Part shown: positions 18,415 to 38,911 of the stretch, piece by piece
Layout of the letters: every line of letters begins with the position of its first letter
Position numbering within the stretch: the first letter of the stretch is position 1
Notes under the pieces: model-generated
The model's input: the letters and a program-made list of their open reading frames with translations, nothing else
Database searches by the model: none
What the model was told of the DNA's origin: nothing
Origin: Phormidium ambiguum IAM M-71
Lineage (GTDB): Bacteria > Cyanobacteriota > Cyanobacteriia > Cyanobacteriales > Aerosakkonemataceae
Direction of reading: 5' to 3'
DNA length: 64,000 nt
Assembly (NCBI RefSeq): GCF_001904725.1
Contig: NZ_MRCE01000002.1
Location: 261,303-325,302, forward strand
Made by a program: the position numbers and the translations under genes

Positions 18415-20778
18415 TTAGTTTGCTAAATTTTTTTGTTTTTCGATTAAATCAATAATTTTATCGCACCGAAAATTGTGAGCTAAATCAGCAATCGATCGAC
18501 TAATATGGACGCATTCCGGGGGCATTTTTTCTAGCAAAGCAAAAATTTGTTCATTATCAACTGCATCCGCCGCTTGATATAATTCATCAATCCATTCTGA
18601 AGGCATTACTTGTAAACAGAATGGTTCGAGGTTATTAGATGAATCGATGTTGCCATTTGTTCTTTCTTCTCCCTTTAATGAAAATTTTGTAGATAATTTT
18701 TCTGCACTGGTTAATGATGAAATTGGATGCTCATAAATATAACGCACTCCTAAATATTCAGCCATTTTGTCTAAAATTACCTGTTCTCGGAATGGCTTAG
18801 CAACAAAATCATCACAACCTATTGATAGGATAACAGAACGTTCTTCATCAAAAGCACTTGCTGTTAAAGCAATAATAACTGTTTTCTGACCTTTTAATTG
18901 AGTTTTGATGTGTTTAGTAGCTTCATAACCATCCATTACTGGCATTCGCATATCCATCCAAATTAAATGAGGTTCCCAAGTTGACCAAATCTCTACTGCT
19001 TGCTGACCATTTTCTGCTTCCTGCACAGCAAAACCAATAGATGCTAATAATTTAACTAATAAAAGACGACTTTCTAAGCGATCGTCAACTACGAGAATTC
19101 GATATTCGGGTTGTTCAGGTTCTAAAGCAATTACTCGACGATTTTTTTCTGGAGCTTGAATCGGAGTTTGCTCAGCAATATTAATAGCAATATGAAATTT
19201 AAAAATAGTACCTTTACCAAGAGTACTACTAACAGTAATATCCCCCCCCATAAGTTGAATAAATTGGCGACTAATGGGTAAACCTAAACCTGTTCCTTCT
19301 TGCGATCGCCGACCTGCTTCAGTTTGAATAAATGGTTTAAACAAATTATCAACTTCTTCAGAAGAAATTCCGGCTCCTGTATCTTCAATTTCAAAAAATA
19401 AATAATTGTGGGAATACTCTGCATCTTGATTCCCCATATCTTCCGCCATTTTTATTCGTAAAGTTACGCCACCTTCTGTGGTAAATTTAATTGCATTTCC
19501 TAACAAATTAATTAATACTTGACGCAATTTGCTTTCATCTGTTTCTATATATTGTGGCAAGTTTGGAGCGCAATCAACAATTAATTGTAATCCTTTTTTG
19601 TTTGCCTGTAACTGTAACATTTCATCTAAGCTGTTTAACAAGCGATATAAATCAAATATATTTCGATCTACGGTTACTCTTCCTACTTCAATTTTAGACA
19701 TTTGTAAAATATTATTGATTAATTGCAGTAAATGTTCCCCACTGCGATTAATAATTCCTAATTGTTCTTGTTGCTCTGGTTTTAAAGCCAAATCACGTAA
19801 TAATAACTGAGTAAAACCTAAAATAGCATTAAGCGGAGTGCGTAATTCATGACTCATATTAGAAAGAAATTCACTTTTGGCACGATTAGCTTTATCAGCC
19901 GCTTCTTTTGCTTGTTGTAATGCTAATTCTGCTTGTTTTCGTTCAGTAATATCTTGACTAACAGAAATGACACAAGTTTCTCCACTAACTTCTATAATTT
20001 CTGCTGCTAGTAGTGCAGTTTTTATATCTCCTTCTTTAGTGCAAAAATCAAATTCAAAATTCCGAATTCTGCTGTTTTCTGAGAGTAATTGAAATAAACA
20101 GGCCCGATCGGATAAATTTACCCACAAACCCAATTCGATCGCTGTTTTTCCAATAATCTCTTTGCTGTTATAACCAACCATTTGGCAAAAAGCATCGTTA
20201 ACTTCAATATGGCAACCATCACTGAGCCTGGTAATAGTAATTGGATTTGGAGATGAGCGAAAAGCTTTGGCAAATTTTTCTTCAGAAAGACGTAATGCTG
20301 TAGTGCGTTCCTCAACGATACTTTCTAATTTTTGATTCATTCGTTGAAGTTGAGCATTTTGCTCAGCCAGCTGTTGCTCCAAAAAATAACTATGTACCGC
20401 TTCTTTTACAGTTAATTTTAAATCTTCTGATTGCCAAGGTTTGGCAATATAACGATATAATCTAGCATATTTGATCGCATTTCCCACTGCTTCTAAATCT
20501 GCTTGACCAGTGAGCATAATTTTGAAGGTTTTGGGAATTAATTCATGAATTAATTTTAATAATTCATCACCTTTTAATTCAGGCATAATATAATCGCAAA
20601 TAACTAAGGGTATTTGGTAATTATCTGCTATTAATTCTTCAATTAACTCCAAAGCATCAGCACCATTTTCGGCAGTTTCAATTAAATAATCATTGCCTAA
20701 TATTGCTTTGAGTTCTATTTTTAAACTATCTAAAATTGTTGCTTCGTCATCAACACAAAGTATAATCGGCTTTTTCAT
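18415..20778 (-). CDS. Hybrid histidine kinase, REC-PAS-HisKA-HATPase-REC
   Basis: 787 residues. The N-terminal receiver (about 4-125, acceptor D62 in VICDYIMP) is of the subtype with LTGQAD and AKPW motifs, unlike the other N-terminal receivers but like the single-domain receiver gene just upstream. A coiled coil and PAS domain (about 168-285) lead to HisKA (H310), HATPase_c (EDTGAGI, EGTGLGLP) and a second receiver (WMDMRMP). The shared C-terminal tail (about 715-787) follows. The first receiver and PAS probably form the input. It begins 71 bases after the single receiver gene. Confidence 0.92.
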   Translation of the reverse strand: MKKPIILCVDDEATILDSLKIELKAILGNDYLIETAENGADALELIEELIADNYQIPLVICDYIMPELKGDELLKLIHELIPKTFKIMLTGQADLEAVGNAIKYARLYRYIAKPWQSEDLKLTVKEAVHSYFLEQQLAEQNAQLQRMNQKLESIVEERTTALRLSEEKFAKAFRSSPNPITITRLSDGCHIEVNDAFCQMVGYNSKEIIGKTAIELGLWVNLSDRACLFQLLSENSRIRNFEFDFCTKEGDIKTALLAAEIIEVSGETCVISVSQDITERKQAELALQQAKEAADKANRAKSEFLSNMSHELRTPLNAILGFTQLLLRDLALKPEQQEQLGIINRSGEHLLQLINNILQMSKIEVGRVTVDRNIFDLYRLLNSLDEMLQLQANKKGLQLIVDCAPNLPQYIETDESKLRQVLINLLGNAIKFTTEGGVTLRIKMAEDMGNQDAEYSHNYLFFEIEDTGAGISSEEVDNLFKPFIQTEAGRRSQEGTGLGLPISRQFIQLMGGDITVSSTLGKGTIFKFHIAINIAEQTPIQAPEKNRRVIALEPEQPEYRILVVDDRLESRLLLVKLLASIGFAVQEAENGQQAVEIWSTWEPHLIWMDMRMPVMDGYEATKHIKTQLKGQKTVIIALTASAFDEERSVILSIGCDDFVAKPFREQVILDKMAEYLGVRYIYEHPISSLTSAEKLSTKFSLKGEERTNGNIDSSNNLEPFCLQVMPSEWIDELYQAADAVDNEQIFALLEKMPPECVHISRSIADLAHNFRCDKIIDLIEKQKNLAN

Positions 20779-20849
20779 AGTTTTCCTTAGCTTTAAAGTA
20801 GTCTTTCTCCTTGCTTTAAATTAATTAGAACATCTTGCCTTAATGCAAT

Positions 20850-21245
20850 CTATATCTTTTCCAATCCAGACTTGATAGTTTCAATTAATTCTTGACTACT
20901 CCAAGGCTTATACAAACAATTGTGTAATGCTGCTTTTTCCTTAGCACGTTGAATAGCAGTTTCATCAGCTTGTCCAGTCAACATTACTTTAATAATTTTT
21001 GGATATTTTTGATGTACTCTAATTAAAAATTCATCACCTTTAATCCCTGGCATTAACCAATCAGAAACAATTACTAAAATATCAGTTTCTTCTGCTTGTA
21101 ATTCTTCAATAATCTCTAACGCTTCGTCAGCACTTTCGGCTACTTCATAAATATAGGCATCGCCGAATTCTTTTTTCAGTTGAATTTTTAAACTGTTTAG
21201 TACAACTGCTTCATCGTCAACACACAAGATTGCTGGTTTAGACAT
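20850..21245 (-). CDS. Single-domain response regulator
   Basis: 131 residues, only a receiver: D10/D11, phospho-acceptor D62 in IVSDWLMP, and K in YKPW near the C-terminus. With no output domain it may act as a phosphate shuttle or bind a partner kinase, as CheY-type and Spo0F-type receivers do. It is closest within the window to the N-terminal receiver of the next gene (shared LCVDDEA start and LTGQAD motif), which suggests local duplication. Confidence 0.93.
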   Translation of the reverse strand: MSKPAILCVDDEAVVLNSLKIQLKKEFGDAYIYEVAESADEALEIIEELQAEETDILVIVSDWLMPGIKGDEFLIRVHQKYPKIIKVMLTGQADETAIQRAKEKAALHNCLYKPWSSQELIETIKSGLEKI

Positions 21246-21293
21246 TGTATTTACTCCTTAATCAAATTACATTTAGCTAATCCAAGTAACTTA

Positions 21294-22730
21294 CTAACTG
21301 TTAGTAGCAAATGGTAAAGTTACAGTAAAAGTAGTTTGTCCCGGAATACTTTCTACAGAAATGTTTCCTTCGTGTTTTTGAACTATTTTTTTGACAATAT
21401 CCAATCCTAAACCGCTACCTTCTCCTGCTGGTTTAGTCGTAAAAAAAGGTTCAAAGATTCTTGGCATAATTTCCGCAGGAATCCCCTTACCACTATCAGT
21501 TATACTAATCAATAAATTATCGCTTTCCTGACTCACATTAATAATCAAATGTCCTTTATACTCCATTGCTTGAATTGCATTATGGATCAAATTTGTCCAC
21601 ACTTGGTTTAATTCATCAGGGTAACATAAAAAAGGTGGTAAATTAGATTCATAATTTCTGGTGACTTCAATGCCATGTTTTAGTTGATTATTATAGAGAG
21701 TTAAAACTGTTTCTATGCCTTCTACGATTTGCGATCGCACTTTTTCGCCTGAGTGATCGTAACGGGCATAATTTTTTAACGCAAACACAACCTTTGCCGC
21801 TTTTTCAGTTGCAGTTCTAATCGTATCGGTGCTTTTTTGAATACTTGCTACTTGATAAGCTTTATCTAATATTTGCAAGCCATTTTCATCTTGCAACAAA
21901 GGTATTAAGTTAGAAACGCGATCGTAAATTCCTAAATCCACTAAAGTATCAGCAATAGTATCACTATTACTAATTTTTTCCGTTTCTAATTCTTGAATTA
22001 AGAATTTCTTTAACTGACGCTTTTCTTTACTAGATAAACTAGTCTTTTGGTCGTTGGATCTTTGTAATATCTCCAAAAAATATTTTTGATATTCTGATGT
22101 CAAAGAATAGTAAAAATCTGGAAACTCTAATAAGTTATCTTTTAAAAAATCGGCAATATTTTCAACAGACGAACGAATAGCACCCAAAGGAGTATTAATT
22201 TCATGGGCGATTCCTGCCACCAGTTGACCTAACGCAGCCATTTTTTCTGATTGAATTAACTGTTCTTGTGTATTCTTTAGTTGTTTAACAATTAATTCTA
22301 ACTCCTGATTTTTATTAATGAGGCTTTTTTGTAACTGACGAATTGCTAAATGGGTTTCCACTCGCATCAAAACTTCTTCTACTTGAAAAGGTTTAGTAAC
22401 ATAATCTACCCCACCGATTTCAAAAGCTTGCACTTTATCCAACACATCATCTAGCGCACTAATAAAAATTACCGGAATTTCTCGCGTTATTTCATTTTCT
22501 TTTAATTTTTTACATACCTCAAAACCACTCATTTTCGGCATATTAATATCTAGTAAAATCAAGTCAGGTGGTATAGCACTCGCGCCTGATAATGCTAGTT
22601 CCCCATCCATAACAGGACGAACTTTATATCCTTTTTCAGTTAACATTCCTACTAAAAGGCGCAGATTAGCTGGAGTATCATCAACAACCAAAATATTAGC
22701 CTTATAATTTTTATTGTAATCAGAATTCAT
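21294..22730 (-). CDS. Receiver-histidine kinase
   Basis: 478 residues. The receiver is about 10-130 (acceptor D61), followed by a coiled coil and a HisKA domain of a different subtype from the neighbouring hybrids: H176 in GIAHEINTPL, with a long helical insert (about 195-290). HATPase_c has N-box NLIHNAIQA, G1 DSGKGIP and G2 GEGSGLGLD, so it should be active. There is no C-terminal receiver, so its phosphate must go to its own receiver or one in trans. It lies 16 bases downstream of the membrane sensor kinase and 48 upstream of the single receiver. Confidence 0.92.
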   Translation of the reverse strand: MNSDYNKNYKANILVVDDTPANLRLLVGMLTEKGYKVRPVMDGELALSGASAIPPDLILLDINMPKMSGFEVCKKLKENEITREIPVIFISALDDVLDKVQAFEIGGVDYVTKPFQVEEVLMRVETHLAIRQLQKSLINKNQELELIVKQLKNTQEQLIQSEKMAALGQLVAGIAHEINTPLGAIRSSVENIADFLKDNLLEFPDFYYSLTSEYQKYFLEILQRSNDQKTSLSSKEKRQLKKFLIQELETEKISNSDTIADTLVDLGIYDRVSNLIPLLQDENGLQILDKAYQVASIQKSTDTIRTATEKAAKVVFALKNYARYDHSGEKVRSQIVEGIETVLTLYNNQLKHGIEVTRNYESNLPPFLCYPDELNQVWTNLIHNAIQAMEYKGHLIINVSQESDNLLISITDSGKGIPAEIMPRIFEPFFTTKPAGEGSGLGLDIVKKIVQKHEGNISVESIPGQTTFTVTLPFATNS

Positions 22731-22746
22731 AACGGTTTTTTCCTCC

Positions 22747-25521
22747 TTAACTTGCTGAAATTAAATCCAAGATTTTTTCATAATCAAAATTCTCCAGATA
22801 ATGTTTAATTGATTTAGCGACACTAGGATTATCCCGAGCAATTTCTGCAACTATTAGATTAGCCGAATCTAAATCTATATTAATTATTGATTGTTTTAGG
22901 TTCATGAGTAATGGTACAGGAATATGCTGTAAGTCAGTTGGCTTCAATACATAGTTATTAACCTCAGAAAATGAAGATGAATCATCTGTTTGATTCTGAT
23001 AAATATAGCGTACTCCAATATGGCGATTCATAATTTCAAAAATCTCGGCTTCCCGGAATGGCTTACGTAAAAAGTCATCACAACCTGCTGATAAAACTAC
23101 TGTTCTTTCCTCTTCAAAAACACTGGCGGTAACGGCAATAATGACGGTAGATTTACCTTTAGGAGTTGCTTTAATAAGTTTAGTAGCAGTATAGCCATCC
23201 ATAACTGGCATTCGCATATCCATCCAAATTAAATGCGGTTCCCATGTTTCCCAAATAGCGATCGCTTCTTTACCATTACTTGCTTCTTGCAACGCAAAAC
23301 CTAAAGGATTTAGTAATTTCATTAAAAGTTGGCGATTTAACTCTTTATCATCAACAATTAAAATTCGGTATTGCGGTTGATTTGGCTCTAAAGCTATAAC
23401 TTGGAAAGTACGATTAGTAGCGGTAATTTCTACACTATCAACAACTTTAGCTTGAATATAAAAATTAAATACTGTTCCTTTACCTACTTGAGAATTAACG
23501 CTGATTTCTCCACCCATTAATTGTACAAATTGTTGGCTAATAACTAAACCTAATCCAGTACCTTCCTGCGAATCTTTGCCTGTTTTAGTCTGGACGAAAG
23601 CTGTAAATAAATGTTTTAATTCGTCTGATTCAATACCTGAACCCGTATCTTCAACTTCAAAATAAATCTTGATTTTTTCATTTACGGTTTCTTTTTCTGG
23701 CTCAATTGATTGCCAGTTCAAATTTTCTAATGATACTCTGACTGATACACCACCCTCTTGAGTAAATTTGATCGCATTATTTAATAGATTAATTAAAATT
23801 TGGCGTAACTTCACTTGATCTGTAGAAATGTACTGGGGTACTGTTGGATGAATGTCAAATACTAATTGTAACTTTTTATCATCAGCTTTTAAATTAAACA
23901 TATCTTCTACATCATTGAGCAACCGATAAAGATCGAAATTATTTTCGCTTAAATGTACTCGTCCTGCTTCAATTTTAGACAAATCTAAGATATTATTAAT
24001 TAGTGTCAATAAGTATTCCCCGCTTCGCAGAATAATTCCTATATTTTCTCTTTGTTCTGAGTTGAGATTGGTTTGGCGGCTGAGAATTTGCGAAAATCCT
24101 AAAATAGCATTTAAAGGCGTTCTCAATTCATGACTCATATTAGCCAAAAATGTGCTTTTGGCTTGGTTTGCTACTTCAGCTGCTTCTTTAGCTTTAATTA
24201 GTTGCGATGTACGTTCTGTCACTCTTTGTTCTAAAGTAGTGAAGGAATCTCTCAACTGATTAGCCATCGAATTGAAAGATTTCGCTAGTTCACCTAGTTC
24301 GTCAGAACGTTCTATTTCTATAGTTTTTTCCCAATCTCCTTTGGCAATATCTTTAGCGGCTGTATTTAAGCGCAAAATTGGTTTAGTTACCCAGCGAGTT
24401 GTCAAAATACCAGTAATTATAGCTAATCCTAAAGCTCCAACAGATAACAGTATTGTGATGCGGTTATTTGCATCAATTTGTTCCATAAAATCTGCTTGGG
24501 GAACGACAACTACAATTAACCAATCTAAGCCTTTACCATCTTGAAATGGTAAAATTTTGACAAATTTTTGATTACCATTCAGATTAAAGTTTACTTGTTG
24601 AGGTGACTTAATTTGGTTCAATAGTTGAAAGTTATCTAACAAATGTTTAGCTGTTGATTTAGTTAATAAATTGTTGCTGTTTTCGGCTCGGATTAATTCT
24701 CTACTTTGGTTTGGTTTAATAATGAAAGGTTGTTCTTTGGTAGAAGTTGCTAACAAAATACCATTTCTTTCAATAATAAATGCTTGTCCAGTTTTGCCAA
24801 TTTTTAAACTATTGAGAAAATCTCCAATATGATCTAACCGTAAAGCAGTAGTTAATACACCTTCTAATTGATTTCCTTGGGGATTAAAAACTGGTTCTGC
24901 TGCACTAATTAATAAGGTAGGTTCTAAAATAGAAATAAAAACATCACTCCAGGTTGTTTTTCCTGTTTTTGCTGCATTTTGGTACCACGACCAATTACGA
25001 GGATCGAAATCCCCAACAGTTTTTGCGGCAACCGAAGTCCGATCGCCATTTTTATTAGTATTATAAGAAATAAAATTATTATTAACCGCCGTTCCCGCAA
25101 TATTAACCATTAAATTACCATTAGACATTCTTTCCCCAGAACGATACTCTCCGGCGCTATTAGCTAAACCAGTAAAATTAATGTACGGATATAACTGGAC
25201 TTGATGCCAAAGAAACTTTTCCCAAGCATCCAAATTTTTCATATTTAAATAACCCAATCTAATCATATCAAGCTTATTTTCATTGATTAAATGAGGCGTT
25301 CTTACATATACTTCGAGGTTCTGCTTGACTCGATCGCCTACTTCATTCATCAATTGACTAGCTAAGTCATTAACTGCTTCTTGACCATTTCTAAACGAAA
25401 GGTATCCCACTATTCCCACAGCACCAAGAATTTGCAGAACAAAAGGAACTATTAACACAGTCCTTAAAGGAACATTTCTCCCAACTTTATTCACCCAGCG
25501 ATCGATAGATTTAATTAACAT
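22747..25521 (-). CDS. Membrane hybrid kinase, Cache-HAMP-HisKA-HATPase-REC
   Basis: 924 residues and the first gene of the cluster. Transmembrane segment 1 is about 21-43. An extracytoplasmic double-Cache-type sensor (about 50-345, with the WYQNAAKTGKTTWSDVF segment) is followed by transmembrane segment 2 (about 353-376) and HAMP (from 378). Then come HisKA (H464), HATPase_c (EDTGSGI, EGTGLGL), a receiver (acceptor D768 in WMDMRMP) and a C-terminal helical tail (about 850-924). It is the only cluster member that can sense the outside directly, probably a small ligand in the periplasm. It is a plausible head of the phosphorelay. Confidence 0.93.
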   Translation of the reverse strand: MLIKSIDRWVNKVGRNVPLRTVLIVPFVLQILGAVGIVGYLSFRNGQEAVNDLASQLMNEVGDRVKQNLEVYVRTPHLINENKLDMIRLGYLNMKNLDAWEKFLWHQVQLYPYINFTGLANSAGEYRSGERMSNGNLMVNIAGTAVNNNFISYNTNKNGDRTSVAAKTVGDFDPRNWSWYQNAAKTGKTTWSDVFISILEPTLLISAAEPVFNPQGNQLEGVLTTALRLDHIGDFLNSLKIGKTGQAFIIERNGILLATSTKEQPFIIKPNQSRELIRAENSNNLLTKSTAKHLLDNFQLLNQIKSPQQVNFNLNGNQKFVKILPFQDGKGLDWLIVVVVPQADFMEQIDANNRITILLSVGALGLAIITGILTTRWVTKPILRLNTAAKDIAKGDWEKTIEIERSDELGELAKSFNSMANQLRDSFTTLEQRVTERTSQLIKAKEAAEVANQAKSTFLANMSHELRTPLNAILGFSQILSRQTNLNSEQRENIGIILRSGEYLLTLINNILDLSKIEAGRVHLSENNFDLYRLLNDVEDMFNLKADDKKLQLVFDIHPTVPQYISTDQVKLRQILINLLNNAIKFTQEGGVSVRVSLENLNWQSIEPEKETVNEKIKIYFEVEDTGSGIESDELKHLFTAFVQTKTGKDSQEGTGLGLVISQQFVQLMGGEISVNSQVGKGTVFNFYIQAKVVDSVEITATNRTFQVIALEPNQPQYRILIVDDKELNRQLLMKLLNPLGFALQEASNGKEAIAIWETWEPHLIWMDMRMPVMDGYTATKLIKATPKGKSTVIIAVTASVFEEERTVVLSAGCDDFLRKPFREAEIFEIMNRHIGVRYIYQNQTDDSSSFSEVNNYVLKPTDLQHIPVPLLMNLKQSIINIDLDSANLIVAEIARDNPSVAKSIKHYLENFDYEKILDLISAS

Positions 25522-27377: not shown

Positions 27378-27451
27378 AACTTACAGGTTATCGCCATTTT
27401 TTATTTTGGTTGTTCCCTGTCAAGTTTTTTAGTATACAAAGGGTTAGAAAA

Positions 27452-30400
27452 GTGGCTGGCAAACAACAAAAACCGTTAACAACACTAGCGATCGCGCTAG
27501 CTTTGGCTTCTACCTCCACTCCGATAGTGGCCAATTCCATAGCCCGTCCAGTGCTGGCACAATCATCTACTGAAACATCTTTTCCGATTCCCAAGGAACT
27601 GCCCAGCGGTCAATCATTACAAATTGATGGTTCCACAAGCATGAGCGCCATCAATGAAGCCTTAGAGAAAAATTTTGAAACCAAATACCCTGGTACAGAT
27701 GTCAAAATTTCTTATCAAGGAACCGATGCCGCACTCCAAGCGTTACGAGAAGGGAAAATAGATTTAGCTGCAATTGGTCGCCCCTTGACCCCAGAGGAAC
27801 AAGCACAAGGATTAGTTGCTGTTCCCGTAACTCGTCATAAAATCGCTATTATCGTCGGAAAAGAAAACCCATTTAACAAAAGCATTTTAGCCAAACAATT
27901 TGCCCAAATTTATCGGGGTGAAATTTCCGATTGGTCGGAAATTGGTGGAGAAGCAGGTAAAATTCGCGTAGTCGATCGCCCAGACAGCAGCGATACTCGT
28001 CAATCTTTCCCTAAATATGCCGTTTTTAATGAAGAAGGTGGTTTTTCCTTAGGTTCAAATAGCCAAAAAATTTCTGACGATAGCACCCAAGCAGTAATTG
28101 ATAACTTGGGGAAAGATGGAATTGGTTATGCGATCGCAGATCAAGTAGTCAACAACCCAAATGCGCGAATTGTCGTCATGCACAACGTTTTACCCGACAG
28201 TCCGCGCTATCCTTTTTCGCAACCTTTAATCTACGTCTATAACAAATCCAGATCCACCCCGGCAATGTTGGCATTTTTGGGTACGGCTACAACCGCCCAA
28301 AATCAACAGTTAATCGAACAAGCTAGAGTTGCTGGAGCAATAGGGGCGATCGCAGGTAGCGCCATTACCAGCACTACTACTACGCCTCTCGCCACTCTTC
28401 AGCCTCACAGCGTATCTACACCAACAACACCACCGGAAACAACCGCACAACTGGGAACAACAACACAACCAGAAGCAACCGCACAACCAGAAGCAACGGC
28501 GGGTGCAGTCGCGGCGGAAGAATCAAAAGATGGTGGCATTTCCCCTTGGTGGTGGTTATTGCTGTTACCTTTGTTGGGCGGGTTGCTTTGGTGGTTACTC
28601 AAAGGTAGAAGTGGCGGAGGTGCGGCTGTAATTCCTCCGGTAATTCCCACCGCAACCGATCGGACTCGAATTGTTCTCACACCGCGTAATTGTCGTGATG
28701 CTTATGCTTATTGGGAAGTACCCGATCAAGTTAAGCAAGAAATGCGGCGACAAGGTGGACAAAAAATGCAGCTGCGTTTATATGATGTCACTGATTTGGA
28801 TCTCGATCGCCAAACACCACACAGCGTTAAAGAGTTTGACTGTAGCGAACAACAGCAAGATTTACATTTACCGATCGCACGAGACGATCGTGATTATATT
28901 GCCGAACTTGGTTATCTTACCAGCGACAATCGCTGGCTGAGCGTAATTCGTTCCACTCATGTCCGAGTTCCCGCTTGCGCCCCAACAACCAGCCCCATCC
29001 CCGAAACAGCAACAGTCGATGCAGATGCCCCAACAACCAGCCCCATCCCCGAAACAACCGCAGTCGATGCAGGTGTCCCAACAACCAGCCCCATCCCCGA
29101 AACAGCAACAGTCGATGTAGGTGCAGCTGCACCAAGCGAAGTCCCAGAGAGCAAAATTCCCGATCTTGCTACAGGTGGATTAGGAACAGCTGCTGCTGCC
29201 GCTGCGATCGCAGCTGGAGCCGGATTAGCTGGTACAGTGATTCAACAACAAAATTCTGTCACTCCCGTCAACCAAGAAAATCGATTAATTCTAGTACCGA
29301 GAAATGCTCAAGATGCTTATGCTTACTGGGAAATTAGCCCGGAAAAACAAACAGAAGTATCAGAACTAGGCGATGGAAAATTACTTTTGCGGCTTTATGA
29401 CACTACTGGTGACATTGATTTAGATAAACAACAAGCGCATTGTGTCCGGGAATATGAATGCGATAACCAAAATCCAGATTTACATATCGCAGTTCCTCAA
29501 AGCGACAGAGATTACACCGCAGAATTAGGTTATGTTGCTAAAGATGGCAAATGGATCAAAATTGCCCGTTCTTTACCAGTACAAATCAATAGCGAAGTTT
29601 CTGCTCCTACAGATGCTAGCGGAACTGAGTTAGCCGAGCCAACTATTCAACCAGAGTTTATCACTCCGGTTACTTTGGACGATCGACTAATTCTAGTCTC
29701 CGAAGACTCGCAAAATGCAGAAGCCGCCTGGGAAATTTCTCCCGAAAAACACCGAGAAATCCAACAACTTGGCGGTCAAAAATTGTTACTGCGCCTTTAT
29801 GACATCACTGAAGGTATTGATGATTTAAATCCACAACAATTGGATTACGTACAAGAATACGAGTGCGACGATCGACAATCCAATTTACAAATCGCCATTC
29901 CCCAAACAGATCGTGATTACATAGCCGAAATCGGCTACCTAACAGACTATGGACAATGGTTAAAAATTGCCCGTTCTGCACCAGTAGAAATCAACAGCCA
30001 AGTCACAGAAAATAAAATTTCTCCCGCTGCTGCTACAGGTGCATTAGGAGTTGTAGCCGCCGCTGCGGGAGTGGGATTAGCTGATGCGCTAAAAACTTCT
30101 GAAGTTGAAGAAAATCGCTTAACTTTAGTGTCTAAAGACTCGCAAAACGCAGAAGCTACTTGGGAAATTTCTCCCGAAAAACACACAGAAATACAACAAC
30201 TCGGCGGTCAAAAATTAGTGTTGTACCTTTACGATATTACGGGAGACCTTGATTTAGATTTACAACCAGCTAATAGCGAGCAACAATACGATTGTGATGA
30301 ACACCAATCAAGTTTACAAATTGCGATTCCTGAGAGCAATCGAGATTACATCGCTGAAATAGGCTATCTGACAGACTATGGACAATGGCTCCAAATTGCC

Positions 30401-31372
30401 CGTTCTTTACCAGTAAGAATCAACAGTCAAGTTGCAGAAAGTGAAGTTTCTGTTCCAGCAGAAGTTGGATTAGCTGATGCGATCGATCAAAACAATCATG
30501 AGTTAACCCCGACTACTCCACAAGGTCAAGTAACTTTAACAGTTCGTGATTCTAAAAATGCAGAAGCTCATTGGGAAATGCCCGAAACACAGCAAGCAAA
30601 GTTAAAAGAAGCTGGGAAAAAACTTTTGCTGCGCGTTGACGATATTACAGAGAATGACTTGGATTTAGAAGCAGCAAATTGTGTCCAAGAGTACGAGTGC
30701 GATCCTAATTCTACAAATGTCAAAATTGTGATTCCTCAGAGCGATCGAGATTACATCGCCAAGATAGGTTACATTGATGACGGAAAATGGGTGACAATTG
30801 CTCGTTCTGCATCCCTGCGTGTTATCGGCTTACCAACAGAAAGCGATAAAACAACATCTGGATCGATCGGTAATGTTGGCAACGTTACTACCAATTTAGC
30901 TGAAGATTTAGCAAAGGCGATCGGTGCAACAGTTAGCAGCGGTGCAGCTAATGTCGCTGAACTGGGAACAACCGCAACAACAGCTTTACAAACTTCTCCA
31001 GAAAATCCTGCGCCTACAATCACTCCTGAAATGAAGCGCGACTGTAGGATTATCCTTGTGCCTTATAACGCTCAAGATGCTTACGCTTTTTGGGAAGTTT
31101 CCGAAGATTACAAGGAAGCTCTCCGCCAGCAAGGTGGCAAAAAGTTTATGTTGCGCGTTCATGATGCCACAGGTTTAGATATTGACTATCAGCCACCACA
31201 CAATACCCAAGAGTACCTGTGCGAAGAAACACAACAGGATAAGCACGTTTCCGTTCCGGTGAGCGATCGAGACTACATTGCAGAAGTCGGATACTATACC
31301 GAAGATGGACGCTGGCTGCGTTTAATACGCTCTTTTCATGTTCGTGTACCTCTAGAAGGTAAATCAAAATAA
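27452..31372 (+). CDS. PstS-like binding protein fused through a membrane segment to six DUF4912 domains
   Basis: About 1306 residues from GTG 27452, which has AAAGGG about 8 bases upstream; a TTG at 27410 would add 14 residues. After a signal sequence (cleavage near VLAQ), a phosphate-binding-type domain (about 45-290, IDGSTSM start) is followed by a Pro/Thr linker. A transmembrane segment rich in Trp and Leu (about 366-385) ends in KGRS. Six DUF4912 domains follow at about 406-505, 611-712, 745-845, 889-990, 1026-1125 and 1199-1297, each with the A(Y/E)AxWE signature and a DYIAE-type motif. The positive charge after the membrane segment predicts a cytoplasmic C-terminal part. A receptor-like role is inferred. 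DUF4912 function is unknown. Confidence 0.85.
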   Translation: MAGKQQKPLTTLAIALALASTSTPIVANSIARPVLAQSSTETSFPIPKELPSGQSLQIDGSTSMSAINEALEKNFETKYPGTDVKISYQGTDAALQALREGKIDLAAIGRPLTPEEQAQGLVAVPVTRHKIAIIVGKENPFNKSILAKQFAQIYRGEISDWSEIGGEAGKIRVVDRPDSSDTRQSFPKYAVFNEEGGFSLGSNSQKISDDSTQAVIDNLGKDGIGYAIADQVVNNPNARIVVMHNVLPDSPRYPFSQPLIYVYNKSRSTPAMLAFLGTATTAQNQQLIEQARVAGAIGAIAGSAITSTTTTPLATLQPHSVSTPTTPPETTAQLGTTTQPEATAQPEATAGAVAAEESKDGGISPWWWLLLLPLLGGLLWWLLKGRSGGGAAVIPPVIPTATDRTRIVLTPRNCRDAYAYWEVPDQVKQEMRRQGGQKMQLRLYDVTDLDLDRQTPHSVKEFDCSEQQQDLHLPIARDDRDYIAELGYLTSDNRWLSVIRSTHVRVPACAPTTSPIPETATVDADAPTTSPIPETTAVDAGVPTTSPIPETATVDVGAAAPSEVPESKIPDLATGGLGTAAAAAAIAAGAGLAGTVIQQQNSVTPVNQENRLILVPRNAQDAYAYWEISPEKQTEVSELGDGKLLLRLYDTTGDIDLDKQQAHCVREYECDNQNPDLHIAVPQSDRDYTAELGYVAKDGKWIKIARSLPVQINSEVSAPTDASGTELAEPTIQPEFITPVTLDDRLILVSEDSQNAEAAWEISPEKHREIQQLGGQKLLLRLYDITEGIDDLNPQQLDYVQEYECDDRQSNLQIAIPQTDRDYIAEIGYLTDYGQWLKIARSAPVEINSQVTENKISPAAATGALGVVAAAAGVGLADALKTSEVEENRLTLVSKDSQNAEATWEISPEKHTEIQQLGGQKLVLYLYDITGDLDLDLQPANSEQQYDCDEHQSSLQIAIPESNRDYIAEIGYLTDYGQWLQIARSLPVRINSQVAESEVSVPAEVGLADAIDQNNHELTPTTPQGQVTLTVRDSKNAEAHWEMPETQQAKLKEAGKKLLLRVDDITENDLDLEAANCVQEYECDPNSTNVKIVIPQSDRDYIAKIGYIDDGKWVTIARSASLRVIGLPTESDKTTSGSIGNVGNVTTNLAEDLAKAIGATVSSGAANVAELGTTATTALQTSPENPAPTITPEMKRDCRIILVPYNAQDAYAFWEVSEDYKEALRQQGGKKFMLRVHDATGLDIDYQPPHNTQEYLCEETQQDKHVSVPVSDRDYIAEVGYYTEDGRWLRLIRSFHVRVPLEGKSK
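28981..29124 (+). repeat. Three 48-bp in-frame tandem repeats
   Basis: Three copies with a 48-base period encode PTTSPIPETATVDA-type units in the linker between DUF4912 domains 1 and 2. Copies differ at a few bases. Expansion keeps the frame, so linker length could vary between strains. Confidence 0.85.
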
Positions 31373-31458: not shown

Positions 31459-31992
31459 ATGGGACTCTTTTTTGACATTCTTAGCTCAATCAATAATCCT
31501 AACCAACAAGGAAATGTAGCTCAGTTAGAATCAATCATGAATACTGTAAATCAGTTATCAGCAACTTACGGAATAGATGCTTCACAAATTCAAACTGTAA
31601 TGTCAAGTGTTGGTAATTTAATTCGTCCAGTATTACAACAAAATACTTCCCTCACAGGTGGTGGCGGAGACAACTTGTTAGGTCAATTTATGGGCGCTGG
31701 CGGTAGCGCGATAGCACTGCAATCTTTACTCACACCAGAAATACAACAACAAATGGTGCAAGTAATTAATCAAACCACAGGATTGAGCCCCAATCAAATT
31801 CAAGCTGCTTTACCCACACTAATTTCTACTGTAATGAGTTTACTAAATATGGGAGCAAGTAAACCCGGAATTCAAGGTGGGGGAAATCCACTTTTAAATG
31901 CCTTTTTAGATGCAGATAAAGATGGTGATGCAGACCTTGGTGATGTCATGAAATATGCTGGTCGGTTTTTAAATCCGCCTCAAGCAGCGTAG
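31459..31992 (+). CDS. DUF937-like protein
   Basis: 177 residues with no signal sequence and rich in Gln, Asn, Gly and Leu. Residues 1-130 resemble the DUF937/YidB-like helical repeat family (FFDILSSI start, TGLSPNQIQAALPTLISTV). Near the C-terminus DADKDGDADLGDV (about 151-163) looks like a short calcium-loop motif, seen in several relatives. Function unknown. GTGAGG lies about 12 bases before the ATG. It follows the DUF4912 gene and is convergent with cytochrome c6. Confidence 0.75.
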   Translation: MGLFFDILSSINNPNQQGNVAQLESIMNTVNQLSATYGIDASQIQTVMSSVGNLIRPVLQQNTSLTGGGGDNLLGQFMGAGGSAIALQSLLTPEIQQQMVQVINQTTGLSPNQIQAALPTLISTVMSLLNMGASKPGIQGGGNPLLNAFLDADKDGDADLGDVMKYAGRFLNPPQAA

Positions 31993-33394: not shown

Positions 33395-35806
33395 ATGTAT
33401 GAAATGATTCAAGCTGTCTTAAACAGCGACCAAAAAACTGACTTACAACATTTACTGAATGTTTTAAGTACTTCCGGGAAAAATTATTTTCTGAGAAACG
33501 AGATTTTACACATTTTTGTCGATTATTGCCAGCAATCAGAAAAACCAGCTTATTTTTACCATTCTTCTTCGTTAGGGCAGTTAATTAACTACACTCATGA
33601 AATAATTTTAGAAGATGATAATATTTGGTTTTTAGTTAGACCGAGAATTGCTAGCCAAGAAGTTTGGCGAATCACAGCTGATTTAAGCAGCTGGGAACAA
33701 GAAGATCAAAAAGTTTTATTAGATGTGCGCGATCGCTTAGTCAACCGTTATCAACCACGCATTTTAGAACTTGACTTTGCTCCCTTTTACGAAAATTCTC
33801 CCACAATTAGCGATCCCAGAAATATTGGTCAAGGATTAGCAGTTTTGCATCGACATTTGCATAGTCAGCTAACAACTAATCCTAGCTATTGGATAGAAGT
33901 TTTATGGGAAATTCTCCAAAGACATCAGTACGATCGCATTCCTTTATTAATCAACGACCAAATTCGATCGGGAACCGAATTATTAGAACAAGTCAAACAA
34001 GCTTTAAAGCTAATTGAAAACAAACCCGCAGACGAACCGTATGAAAAATTTCATTTAGAATTACAAGAACTTGGATTTGAACCAGGTTGGGGAAATACGG
34101 CATCGCGGGTACGGGAAACTTTTGCCCTGTTACAAAGATTAATTGACACTCCAGATCCAGCTATTTTAGAAGCATTTGTTAGCAGAATTCCTGCGGTTTT
34201 TCGTGTAGTATTAATTTCGATTCATGGTTGGGTAGGACAAGAAGAAGTCTTAGGCAGGCCAGAAACCGCAGGTCAAGTTGTTTATGTCCTCAACCAAGCC
34301 AGAAGTTTAGAAAATAGATTAGCAGAAGAGATTAAACAAGCAGGTTTGGAATGTTTAGGAATTAAACCACAAGTTATTATTTTGACTAGGTTAATTCCTA
34401 ATTGTGAAGGAACTAAGTGTAACCTCCGTCTGGAAAAAATTAACGGCACTGAAAATGCTTGGATATTGCGCGTTCCTTTCCGAGAATTTAACCCCAAGGT
34501 GACACAAAATTGGATTAGAAAATTTGAAATTTGGCCTTATTTAGAAACTTTTGCTTTGGATGCCGAACAAGAGTTACTTAAAGAAATGGGAGGAAAACCC
34601 AATTTAGTTATTGGGAATTATAGTGATGGTAATTTAGTTGCTTTTTTGTTAGCTAGTCGGCTCAATATTACCCAATGCAATATTGCCCATTCTCTAGAAA
34701 AACCTAAATATTTGTTTAGTAACTTGTATTGGCAAGATTTAGAAGAAGAGTACCATTTTTCAGCACAATTTACGGCTGATTTAATTAGTATGAATGCTGC
34801 TGATTTCATTGTTACGTCTTCTTTCCAAGAAATTGTAGGAACCCCAGATACGATCGGACAGTACGAGTCTTACAATTGCTTTACGATGCCCCATTTATAT
34901 CATGTGGTAAATGGAGCTAATTTGTTTACTCCGAAGTTTAATGTAGTAGTCCCTGGTGTAGATGAAAATTTCTTTTTCCCCTACAATGAATTAGAACATC
35001 GCTCAAACGAACTAACCCAAAAGCTTCAAGAATTACTCTTTACTCGTGAAGATTCGCAAATTTTGGGACATTTAGAAAATCTCGATAAACGACCGATTTT
35101 TGCTTTGGCACCGATTAATTCTATTAAGAATTTAGCGGGGTTAGCCGAGTGTTTTGGGATGAGTAAAGAATTGCAAGAAAAGTGTAACTTAATCTTAGTT
35201 ACCAGTAAACTACACAGCCATGAAGCTACCAACCCAGAAGAAGCCAGGGAAATTGAAAGATTACACGAAATTATTCATCATTATCAGCTTCATGGTTGTA
35301 TTCGTTGGCTAGGAATACGTTTACCAAATGCGGAGTTGGGGGAAGCTTATAGAGCGATCGCAGATGCTCAAGGTATCTTTGTCCATTTCGCTCGATTTGA
35401 AGCTTTTGGAATGACAATTTTAGAAGCGATGATTTCAGGATTACCAACTTTTGCCACCCAGTTTGGCGGTGCATTAGAAATTATTCAAGATGGTGAAAGT
35501 GGATTTTTAATTAATCCTACAGATTTACCTGGAACAGCAGAAAAAATTGTTAATTTTATCGATCGCTGTACGGAAAATCCCCTGTACTGGCAGGAAGTGT
35601 CTGAAAAAGCTATTCAAAGGGTGCGTCATGAATTTAACTGGCATTTGCATACTACTAAACTTTTGTCGATCGCCAAAATTTCCCAATTTTGGAACTACAT
35701 TTCCCGTAATAGTAAAGGGACTCTACTGCGCTATTTAGATGCGCTATTTCACCTGATTTACAAACCCAGAGCAGAAATTATCCTGGAACAGCATCAGAAA
35801 AGGTGA
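33395..35806 (+). CDS. susA: Sucrose synthase
   Basis: 803 residues, matching the usual length of about 800. The N-terminal regulatory region (about 1-260) precedes a GT-B glucosyltransferase pair (about 270-755) with retaining GT4 E-x7-E residues E669 and E677 in the FEAFGMTILEA motif. The enzyme reversibly converts sucrose and NDP to fructose and NDP-glucose, in the cytoplasm. In cyanobacteria it feeds sucrose into glycogen and polysaccharide synthesis. AGGAAA precedes the ATG. It lies 213 bases before a disaccharide phosphorylase fusion gene. Confidence 0.93.
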   Translation: MYEMIQAVLNSDQKTDLQHLLNVLSTSGKNYFLRNEILHIFVDYCQQSEKPAYFYHSSSLGQLINYTHEIILEDDNIWFLVRPRIASQEVWRITADLSSWEQEDQKVLLDVRDRLVNRYQPRILELDFAPFYENSPTISDPRNIGQGLAVLHRHLHSQLTTNPSYWIEVLWEILQRHQYDRIPLLINDQIRSGTELLEQVKQALKLIENKPADEPYEKFHLELQELGFEPGWGNTASRVRETFALLQRLIDTPDPAILEAFVSRIPAVFRVVLISIHGWVGQEEVLGRPETAGQVVYVLNQARSLENRLAEEIKQAGLECLGIKPQVIILTRLIPNCEGTKCNLRLEKINGTENAWILRVPFREFNPKVTQNWIRKFEIWPYLETFALDAEQELLKEMGGKPNLVIGNYSDGNLVAFLLASRLNITQCNIAHSLEKPKYLFSNLYWQDLEEEYHFSAQFTADLISMNAADFIVTSSFQEIVGTPDTIGQYESYNCFTMPHLYHVVNGANLFTPKFNVVVPGVDENFFFPYNELEHRSNELTQKLQELLFTREDSQILGHLENLDKRPIFALAPINSIKNLAGLAECFGMSKELQEKCNLILVTSKLHSHEATNPEEAREIERLHEIIHHYQLHGCIRWLGIRLPNAELGEAYRAIADAQGIFVHFARFEAFGMTILEAMISGLPTFATQFGGALEIIQDGESGFLINPTDLPGTAEKIVNFIDRCTENPLYWQEVSEKAIQRVRHEFNWHLHTTKLLSIAKISQFWNYISRNSKGTLLRYLDALFHLIYKPRAEIILEQHQKR

Positions 35807-36019
35807 TCTATGAACATAAGACCAGTAATCTCTGCCTAAAAATCCTGTAATTAGCGGATGTTAGTGCTGATTTTAGATTTGGGATAATACTTCGGTATGA
35901 GATTATTTATTAATCAAAATTTAAAATCAGCATAATTAACAAACTTATTGCGGTGTCAATTTCTAATTGCTTCATCTAAAATCAAAAATTAATAGTTCTA
36001 TAAACTAACACTAGCACTG

Positions 36020-38911
36020 ATGGATAGAGCCAGACCAACTCAATCATTAATTTACACAGACTGGACTTTAACTGAAAACCAATTTGACCCGGAACAGTTA
36101 CATTCCAGAGAAACGGTTTTCACTATTGGCAACGGTTATTTAGGTACGAGAGGTAGTTTAGAAGAAGGTTATCCTCGTTCTTCACCATCAACATTAATTC
36201 ATGGTGTTTATGATGAGGTACCGATCGTCTATACTGAGCTTGCGAATTGTCCAGATTGGTTGCCATTTCTAGTCATTATAGATGGCGATCGTTTTCGTCT
36301 TGACCAAGGGGAAATACTCAGTTATCAACGACAATTAGATCTGCGTCGTGGTACTTTATATCGGCGAGTGCGTTGGCGCAGTCCTAGCAACAAAACAGTT
36401 GACTTTTCTTGGGAACGTTTTGCTAGTTTAGCAGATCAAAATGTCGTAGCTTTACGCTTTGAAATTACCCCGATCAATTCCGAAGTAACAGTAGAAATTC
36501 AAGCTAGTATTAATGGCTATCCAGAAAATCAAGGCTACAATCACTGGGAATTACTAAATCAAGGAAAGATCGATCGAGGAACTTGGTTACACACTCGGAC
36601 TAGAGCTTCCCGAATTGAATTAGCAATAGCATTTAAATTATTAATTTCGGGAATAGATGCGGCATTACAAATCACTAACGCTCCCGGATATCCCACAGTT
36701 AGTTCAACTTTTCTTGCCACTCCCGGTACTAATGTCATAGTAGAAAAACTAATTACCATTTTTACTTCCAGGGAAACAGAAACACCTGTAGAATCGGCCC
36801 AAAATAGACTAACTCAACTATCCAATTACACAACATTATTAAATGAAAATGAAGACGCTTGGCGAGAAGTTTGGCATCAAAGTGATATTGTAATTGAAGG
36901 CGATACTAGAGCGCAATTAGCTGTACGTTACAATCTATTTCAATTACTAATTAGTGCGCCTCGCCATGATGATAAAGTAAGTATTCCAGCCAAAACTCTT
37001 TCCGGTTTTGGCTATCGGGGTCATGTTTTTTGGGACACAGAAATATTTATTTTGCCTTTCTTTACTTTTACTCAACCAAAGATTGCGCGTAACTTATTAA
37101 CTTATCGTTATTACACTTTAAATGGAGCCAGACGTAAAGCCGCACATTATGGATATAAAGGCGCAATGTATGCTTGGGAAAGTGCTGATACAGGAGATGA
37201 AGTAACACCACGTTGGGCACTTCCTAATCAACCTTACGGTGAAGAAATTAGAATTTGGTGCCGCGATCGAGAAATTCACATTAGTGCTGATGTTGCTTAC
37301 GCAGTATGGTATTACTGGAAAGCCACAAATGATGATGAATGGATGCGCGATTATGGAGCCGAAATTATTCTTGATACCGCCATTTTTTGGATGAGTCGAG
37401 TTGAGTGGAATACCAAACAAGAGCGTTATGAAATTAGAGAAGTAATCGGCGCTGATGAATATCACGAGCACGTCAGCAACAATGTTTTTACTAATCGCAT
37501 GGCACAATGGCATTTAGAAAAAGCATTGATAGTTTATGATTGGCTGAATAACAATTTTCCCGATCGATTTACCGAATTAAAGAATAAACTAAAATTAACT
37601 GCGGAAAGACGATCGCGCTGGCAAGATATTGCAACTAATCTCTGGATTCTTTATGACGAATCTAGCGCATTAATTGAACAGTTTGAAGGCTTTTTTGACT
37701 TAGAAGATATTAATTTAGAAGATTACGAACCGCGAACTAAATCAATTCAAGCAATTCTGGGTATTGAAGCGGGAAACAAGCGACAAGTTCTCAAACAACC
37801 AGATGTTTTAATGCTGCTTTATTTAATGCGCCAATCAAAAGAAATTCCCTACAATCAAGAGACATTACGGCAAAACTGGGATTACTACGCACCCCGCACA
37901 GATATCACTTACGGTTCATCTTTAGGGCCAGCAATTCACGCCATTTTAGCTTCTGATTTAGGGAAAAATGAAGAAGCTTATGAGCGCTTTATGCAAGCAG
38001 CTTTAGTAGATTTAGAAGATGTTCGAGGTAATGCTAATGATGGCATTCACGGCGCTAGTGCTGGTGGCATTTGGCAAGCTGTAGTTTTAGGTTTTGGAGG
38101 TGTTCAATTTGCAGAAAATGGCCCGGTCGCCCAACCGCAATTACCCCCTGGTTGGAACCGCTTAAAATTTAAGATCCATTGGCAAGATAATTGGCACGAA
38201 TTCGATCTAGTTTCTCCAAAAAGTTCCTCAGTTACTATGAATCAATCCCCTAATATTCAAGGTGTAATTTTCGATTTAGATGGAGTTCTCACGGATACCG
38301 CAGAATTTCATTATCGAGCTTGGCAAAGATTAGCAGATGAAGAAGGATTACCTTTTAATCGAGAAGCAAATGAAGAATTGAGAGGTATATCTCGACGAGA
38401 ATCCCTGTTATTAATCGCGGGAGATCAACCGTTTTCGGAAGATAAATTACAGGAAATGATGGAACGGAAAAACAGTTATTATGTAGAGTCAATTGAAAAT
38501 ATTTCCCCGGCTGATTTGTTACCTGGCGCTTTAAATTTATTAGATGAATTGCAGCAAGCGGGGATTAAAATAGCTATTGGTTCCGCTAGTAAAAATGCCC
38601 GTCCAGTTGTGGAAAAATTAGGAATTGCTAATCGCATAGATGCGATCGCAGATGGCTACAGTGTCCAAGCTCCTAAACCTGCACCCGACTTATTTCTACA
38701 CGCTGCCACACTGATAAGAATTTCCCCCCAAAATTGCTTAGTTGTTGAAGATGCCGCCGCAGGTGTTGAAGCAGCTTTGGCTGCTGGAATGTACGCAGTA
38801 GGACTAGGCCCTAATGAAAGAGTCAAAGATGCTCATGTCGTACTTCCTAACTTAGCCGGAGTGAGTTGGGTAGACTTGCAAACTAAACTTAATATTGCAA
38901 CTTCTGCGTAA
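36020..38911 (+). CDS. GH65 disaccharide phosphorylase fused to beta-phosphoglucomutase
   Basis: 963 residues in two enzymes. Residues 1-735 form a GH65 phosphorylase (N-terminal beta domain, alpha/alpha barrel, small C domain), with the general acid E480 in GADEYHEHV. Residues 745-960 form a HAD-type beta-phosphoglucomutase with nucleophile D752 and acid/base D754 in FDLDGVLTD, plus GSASKN and VVEDAAAGVEAA motifs. The first half would split an alpha-linked disaccharide (maltose, trehalose, kojibiose or nigerose type) with phosphate to give beta-glucose 1-phosphate. The second would turn that into glucose 6-phosphate. Substrate choice cannot be read from the sequence. Confidence 0.92.
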   Translation: MDRARPTQSLIYTDWTLTENQFDPEQLHSRETVFTIGNGYLGTRGSLEEGYPRSSPSTLIHGVYDEVPIVYTELANCPDWLPFLVIIDGDRFRLDQGEILSYQRQLDLRRGTLYRRVRWRSPSNKTVDFSWERFASLADQNVVALRFEITPINSEVTVEIQASINGYPENQGYNHWELLNQGKIDRGTWLHTRTRASRIELAIAFKLLISGIDAALQITNAPGYPTVSSTFLATPGTNVIVEKLITIFTSRETETPVESAQNRLTQLSNYTTLLNENEDAWREVWHQSDIVIEGDTRAQLAVRYNLFQLLISAPRHDDKVSIPAKTLSGFGYRGHVFWDTEIFILPFFTFTQPKIARNLLTYRYYTLNGARRKAAHYGYKGAMYAWESADTGDEVTPRWALPNQPYGEEIRIWCRDREIHISADVAYAVWYYWKATNDDEWMRDYGAEIILDTAIFWMSRVEWNTKQERYEIREVIGADEYHEHVSNNVFTNRMAQWHLEKALIVYDWLNNNFPDRFTELKNKLKLTAERRSRWQDIATNLWILYDESSALIEQFEGFFDLEDINLEDYEPRTKSIQAILGIEAGNKRQVLKQPDVLMLLYLMRQSKEIPYNQETLRQNWDYYAPRTDITYGSSLGPAIHAILASDLGKNEEAYERFMQAALVDLEDVRGNANDGIHGASAGGIWQAVVLGFGGVQFAENGPVAQPQLPPGWNRLKFKIHWQDNWHEFDLVSPKSSSVTMNQSPNIQGVIFDLDGVLTDTAEFHYRAWQRLADEEGLPFNREANEELRGISRRESLLLIAGDQPFSEDKLQEMMERKNSYYVESIENISPADLLPGALNLLDELQQAGIKIAIGSASKNARPVVEKLGIANRIDAIADGYSVQAPKPAPDLFLHAATLIRISPQNCLVVEDAAAGVEAALAAGMYAVGLGPNERVKDAHVVLPNLAGVSWVDLQTKLNIATSA

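Follow-up and report, generated by a model that had tools for sequence, protein, structure and literature searches.

A cyanobacterial protein family joining a PstS-like outer domain with an altered phosphate loop to a membrane helix and a DUF4912 array

A 64,000-nucleotide stretch of the Phormidium ambiguum IAM M-71 genome (contig NZ_MRCE01000002.1, positions 261,303 to 325,302 of the forward strand; here called the window) carries a gene whose product joins a PstS-like periplasmic binding protein (PBP) domain, a membrane helix, and six DUF4912 domains. We describe here this fused protein, its family, and the DUF937-like gene that follows it. The open reading frame (ORF) is intact at 27410-31372 (+), with a mechanically called TTG start at 27410; the GTG at 27452 is the likelier start, because it has AGGG close by on its 5' side and gives an N terminus that reads as a signal peptide ending in VLA before Q. 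In Pfam, PBP_like_2 (PF12849) matches with an E value of 2.6e-31 (109.8 bits against a cut-off of 27) and DUF4912 (PF16258) matches six stretches with an E value of 6.4e-159 (520.4 bits against a gathering score of 29.4), while LysR_substrate exceeds its cut-off by 0.3 bits within the same PBP region. Only these three families score above cut-off in the window protein, and no enzymatic output domain was found. A preliminary description of this DNA had given the coordinates and the parts correctly (an exported PBP, a helix with basic residues behind it, and six DUF4912 copies), and alignment bears out the two motif classes that it distinguished, DAYA(Y/F)WE in copies 1, 2, and 6 and NAEAxWE in copies 3, 4, and 5. 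The gene and its parts are as follows.

27452 to 31372 (+): PBP_like_2, membrane helix, and six-copy DUF4912 protein, 1306 amino acids (aa), GTG start (ORF list, Pfam, direct reading)
27452 to 27559 (+): predicted signal peptide, cleavage after ...RPVLA, before Q (direct reading)
27584 to 28351 (+): PstS/SphX-like periplasmic binding domain, PBP_like_2 (profile E 2.6e-31; nearest solved chain 9l8j)
27974 to 28009 (+): altered phosphate loop DRPDSSDTRQSF (alignment; a contact list within PMC10846223)
27992 to 27994 (+): Asp codon (residue 181 from the GTG) at the site of the phosphate-contacting Gly of PstS (alignment)
28544 to 28600 (+): single membrane helix PWWWLLLLPLLGGLLWWLL, then KGR (hydrophobicity scan; Trp/Leu-rich)
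28646 to 28996 (+): DUF4912 copy 1, DAYAYWE, predicted fibronectin type III (FN3)-like fold (Pfam and model)
29261 to 29614 (+): DUF4912 copy 2, DAYAYWE (Pfam and alignment)
29663 to 30019 (+): DUF4912 copy 3, NAEAAWE (Pfam and alignment)
30095 to 30448 (+): DUF4912 copy 4, NAEATWE (Pfam and alignment)
30506 to 30850 (+): DUF4912 copy 5, NAEAHWE (Pfam and alignment)
31025 to 31369 (+): DUF4912 copy 6, DAYAFWE (Pfam and alignment)

The nearest solved chain to the PBP part is Sll0540 (9l8j; E 7.8e-56), and the score against the NCBIfam PstS family TIGR02136 is 103.2 bits, below the cut-off of 206.6. A passage of PMC10846223 lists eight residues of Escherichia coli PstS that contact phosphate, including G140. 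In an alignment of 53 non-redundant fused domains, the position equivalent to G140 is occupied by Asp in 41, Glu in 8, Gly in 3, and Leu in 1, whereas the standalone relatives retain Gly in 14 cases out of 17; the window protein has Asp there, and the loop glycine of PstS is not conserved. Likewise, the Ser of the AISR motif is kept in 14 of the 17 standalone proteins and is replaced by Gly in 46 of the 53 fused domains. The rest of the pocket is better preserved: the fused domains keep Arg at the R135 position (43/53), Ser139 (46/53), and Thr141 (47/53), and the arginine following the loop and that of AIGR are present in all 53. Because the loop and AISR are altered while the other pocket residues are mostly kept, we infer that the pocket region has changed rather than decayed, such that the ligand may no longer be free phosphate or an acidic side chain may fill the site. 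In a quick tree, the fused PBPs share one branch (SH-aLRT 100) made up of the 53 fused domains and two short rows, L021 and L052, which are labelled standalone, are possibly truncated copies, and lack the loop glycine, as does one other standalone-labelled row; forced separation of the 53 fused domains from all 17 standalone-labelled rows was not rejected in this tree (p-AU 0.115). The loop change thus seems to track the fused-protein branch. PstS, SphX, and Sll0540 belong to the same domain family, but in the proteins described here the domain is followed in the same chain by a membrane helix and a tail, and 49 of 53 have Asp or Glu in place of the phosphate-loop glycine. The "phosphate-binding-type" label of the preliminary description therefore holds as far as the PBP_like_2 match goes and is weakened by the acidic residue, and the loop change is a caution against labelling proteins of the fused family as phosphate-binding.

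At least 67 of the 291 genomes searched within the order contain a fused ORF, defined as an open frame of at least 450 aa (query, the first 483 residues; hand count). The first 416 residues, at an E value of 1e-60, match 33 of 194 genomes sampled across the phylum, all in the window's class, and the named relatives of the window protein come from Phormidium sp. LEGE 05292, Calothrix, Fischerella, Nostoc, and Leptolyngbyaceae. Our literature search found no study of this architecture or family. The window protein is therefore a member of a widespread cyanobacterial family, and to speak of a new system, as had been proposed, is too strong for one gene. Comparison with its nearest relative, from Phormidium sp. 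LEGE 05292, shows purifying selection on the gene, dN being well below dS in the PBP (0.19 and 0.84), the first DUF4912 copy (0.17 and 0.98), and the last (0.07 and 0.68). Family-wide features were assessed in a set of 42 loci, consisting of 40 loci with wide flanks, the window, and a paralogue on contig C18 of the same genome.

On a crude hydrophobicity scale, a hydrophobic stretch was detected behind the PBP in 40 of the 42 family loci, which supports one membrane helix behind the exported PBP. Lysine and arginine are more numerous after than before the helix in 37 of these 40, with three ties and no reversal (hand count). The last DUF4912 domain of the C18 paralogue shares 70% identity with the one in a second kind of DUF4912 protein encoded in the same genome, which is leaderless by reading.

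Contig C6, L012 8838-11390: Rho_N-DUF4912 protein, one DUF4912, Rho_N at the N terminus

Because basic residues are richer behind the helix and a related DUF4912 domain occurs in the leaderless Rho_N protein, a cytoplasmic tail is favoured; the DUF4912 domains are most likely cytoplasmic, as the preliminary description had placed them. The Rho_N-DUF4912 proteins have DUF4912 in common with the fused protein, and the C18 fused paralogue also has the same C-terminal domain by reading, but the Rho_N-DUF4912 protein has no leader, PBP, or membrane helix by reading, all of which the fused protein has. Long SSYAVSSY-like repeats lie between DUF4912 and the C-terminal domain of the Rho_N protein, and its first 241 residues had no match in plasmids.

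The model of DUF4912 is a confident one (pLDDT 94.3) and shows a fibronectin-III-like sandwich. The best Foldseek E value of this model against FN3 domains is 1.9e-4, with almost all of the 50 listed rows being FN3 or FN3-derived, and the best VIA match is 5dft_A (Z 9.9, root mean square deviation 2.9 over 89 residues); the VIA rows share only 5 to 15% identity with DUF4912. The predicted fold is thus like that of FN3 domains, but the Pfam FN3 profile did not match the window protein at E values up to 0.1, and the DUF4912 profile matched no PDB sequence at E values up to 10. The FN3-like fold in common reveals no function; in the literature searched, one paper names the domain, in an expression table (PMC7713314). 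Within the array, the first and last copies of the window protein are 74% and 90% identical to those of Phormidium sp. LEGE 05292, while internal copies group into series within each protein (81% identity between copies 2 and 3 in the relative, 69% between copies 3 and 4 in the window protein), so that amplification and turnover have taken place in the middle of the array. The array had been described as diverging internally; the motif classes do differ, but the picture is better put as conserved ends and a middle in turnover.

Immediately downstream, 87 bp from the end of the window gene and in the same direction, begins a second conserved gene.

31459 to 31992 (+): DUF937-like helical protein, 177 aa, Asp-rich C-terminal loop DADKDGDADLGD, leaderless by reading (Pfam, alignment, model)

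Its DUF937 match scores 24.5 bits, below the Pfam gathering score of 25.4, and its match to PRK10519 is also weak, so that the likeness to DUF937/YidB-like proteins is slight, and the Asp-rich C-terminal loop sets the protein apart from them. The model is all helical (pLDDT 76.9) and had no Foldseek match at an E value of 0.001. In 20 aligned rows, five aspartates of the loop each reach at least 90% conservation, which suggests that the protein binds metal. Thirteen of 14 loci found by similarity to the window protein have a PBP ORF, and in 11 of these 13 close relatives the DUF937-like gene is next to it and co-directional; at L141 it is convergent, and L137 lacks it. Among the 42 family loci, it lies 3' of the fused gene in six, 13 to 431 bp away, and all six have DUF4912 close behind the helix. 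Since relatives of the protein occur in 198 of the 291 genomes, the copy beside the fused gene seems to be a recruited paralogue. This conserved neighbour is a new observation, absent from the preliminary description, and no other neighbour cluster common to at least four loci keeps one position.

A second new observation concerns DUF4912 genes elsewhere. Of 117 genomes sampled from the phylum, 62 have a match to the domain, 48 in the window's class and 14 in other classes. In the class of genome G300, which is not that of the window, the DUF4912 gene adjoins a GH57 alpha-glucan branching enzyme gene (identified by Pfam GH57 and BE_C) at 12 of 15 loci; L213, L218, and L219 have no GH57 beside it, L219 being cut short by its contig. 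In a set of 10 loci from a class other than the window's, the same enzyme adjoins DUF4912 at 9 (L155 to L161, L163, and L164; none at L162). In the family of G367, whose small genomes are by reading like those of picocyanobacteria, phosphoglucomutase lies within 1.5 kb of the DUF4912 gene at 14 of the 30 loci examined (of 43 matches), and at five further loci of the window's class (L167 to L171), neither GH57 nor phosphoglucomutase was found beside DUF4912. The C-terminal domain of one such DUF4912 protein weakly resembles Glucodextran_B, below cut-off. The DUF4912 domain family is thereby tied, by gene context alone, to alpha-glucan metabolism, and this neighbourhood offers a testable guess at its role.

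Phosphate control was assessed with a Pho-box matrix built from 20 published three-box sites, which themselves score 7.7 to 23.0. The best Pho-box-like score upstream of the window gene is 8.4, equalled by about 10% of random stretches, and gives no support for placing the window gene in the Pho regulon. Upstream of the 42 family genes the scores average 7.3, compared with 4.3 for random stretches and with no matched intergenic control, an excess that we put down to AT-rich intergenic sequence; some family members may nevertheless be under Pho control, the best score being 14.8 at L084. No pst gene cluster was present among the neighbour clusters common to at least four loci; rarer neighbours were not searched. 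Together with the acidic residue at the G140-equivalent position in 49 of 53 fused domains, the window score weakens the proposal of an anion sensor. The window protein has good support as a receptor-like architecture but not as a sensor of phosphate or anions.

We tentatively favour a single-pass adaptor in the plasma membrane, whose outer domain would have been re-tooled and whose inner array would serve for docking, and infer its mechanism as follows. The DUF4912 tail would, with fair support, lie in the cytoplasm. Because the loop has Asp or Glu for Gly while the neighbouring arginines are kept, the outer domain would probably respond not to free phosphate held in the manner of PstS but to something else. 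The DUF4912 array could plausibly act as a multivalent docking platform for cytoplasmic partners, with the DUF937-like protein as the best candidate, and a signal or tether might conceivably reach carbon-storage (alpha-glucan) proteins, a step suggested by the branching enzyme and phosphoglucomutase genes that adjoin DUF4912 genes elsewhere. Venus-flytrap sensor kinases such as BvgS consist of a periplasmic binding-protein fold, a membrane helix, and a cytoplasmic part; the window protein follows the same outside-helix-inside plan, but its Pfam matches include neither a kinase nor any other enzymatic output domain. The fused family is an entry point to DUF4912, a little-named domain for its frequency in the sampled phylum genomes, and the two-gene module of fused gene and DUF937-like gene makes the partner hypothesis directly testable.

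Several observations weigh against this adaptor. Ten of 53 fused domains have lost the arginine at the R135 position, so that some outer domains may bind nothing, and 3 of 53 retain the loop glycine. The DUF4912 profile finds one to seven copies at 37 of the 42 fused loci and no match at the other five (L073, L078, L080, L083, and L102), so that the architecture can do without the array. On the crude scale, Ala/Gly-rich stretches at residues 579 and 859 score 2.3 and 2.4, compared with 1.9 for the helix, and were they to span the membrane, copies 2 and 3 would be outside; the nearest relative is without these two stretches. The candidate partner is not universal: the first DUF4912 begins before residue 420 at 10 of 42 loci, and the partner is present at 6 of these 10, L071, L074, and L077 being without it and L105 ending at a contig edge. 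Finally, neither GH57, phosphoglucomutase, nor glucose-6-phosphate isomerase recurs beside the fused genes at the loci searched, and the alpha-glucan link derives from other DUF4912 genes.

Some of these observations would fit a structural tether, in which the outer domain has lost ligand binding and acts instead as a folded anchor or a head that binds proteins, physically linking the envelope to cytoplasmic material. The phosphate loop is altered in 50 of 53 fused domains and the R135-position arginine is lost in 10; DUF4912 copies range in number from 0 to 7, as spacers might, and long acidic or Ala-rich linkers occur in the tails read. The two arginines of the pocket region are, however, invariant in all 53 domains, and the purifying selection on the PBP (dN 0.19, dS 0.84) goes beyond the apparent need of a mere head, and we consider a tether rather unlikely. 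A true sensor of phosphate or another tetrahedral anion, binding it outside and signalling inside, would account for the PBP_like_2 and PstS-family matches, the closeness to Sll0540, the mostly retained loop Arg, Ser, and Thr (43, 46, and 47 of 53), the average Pho-box scores of 7.3 against 4.3, the window score of 8.4 at the low end of the published range (7.7 to 23.0), and the standalone PBP relative about 2 kb away at L078. Asp or Glu nevertheless replaces the contacting glycine in 49 of 53 domains and Gly the Ser of AISR in 46, a tenth of random stretches reach the Pho-box score of the window, and pst was absent from the neighbour clusters of at least four loci, the rarer neighbours not having been searched; such a sensor seems improbable to us.

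An extension of the adaptor to a specific envelope-to-glycogen link, running from the acidic-loop PstS-like domain through one helix to a DUF4912 array that docks alpha-glucan enzymes or granules, with the DUF937-like protein as a co-factor bearing a calcium-type loop, is a shade more doubtful still. FN3 domains are frequent in secreted and extracellular proteins, and most Foldseek rows for DUF4912 are FN3 proteins of the extracellular type; the hydrophobic stretch scores only moderately on the crude scale and was not detected at 2 of 42 loci. These points would suit a wholly exported protein, in which the Trp-rich stretch is no stop-transfer helix and the DUF4912 domains are periplasmic or outside, but the excess of basic residues behind the stretch (37/40) and the related Rho_N-DUF4912 proteins, leaderless by reading, make this the least credible of the possibilities considered, and we regard it as very unlikely.

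Some further features of the fused genes and their surroundings were noted. The C18 paralogue (L011 6270-12441) lies 173 bp downstream of a glucose-6-phosphate isomerase-like gene, which had no match beside the other fused loci searched. At L173 (4982-12737), two long PBP-bearing ORFs of the fused family share a strand and are separated by a small ORF. The fused-protein tails at L078, L079, L080, and L088 contain recurring Ala/Gly-rich helices (for example, GGAALAGGAA) and acidic or repetitive linkers. Upstream of the fused gene, the window holds a run of two-component-like genes (18415-25521, minus strand), comprising hybrid sensor kinases and response regulators; response-regulator-like genes occur near 11 of the 42 family loci, at scattered distances and on scattered strands. 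Downstream, at 33395-38911 (+), a sucrose synthase-like gene (803 aa) precedes one whose GH65-like product ends in a HAD-type part. Only the nearest relative shares these two genes and the window's DUF4342 gene, the exceptions being a weak GH65 match at L073 and another inside the window.

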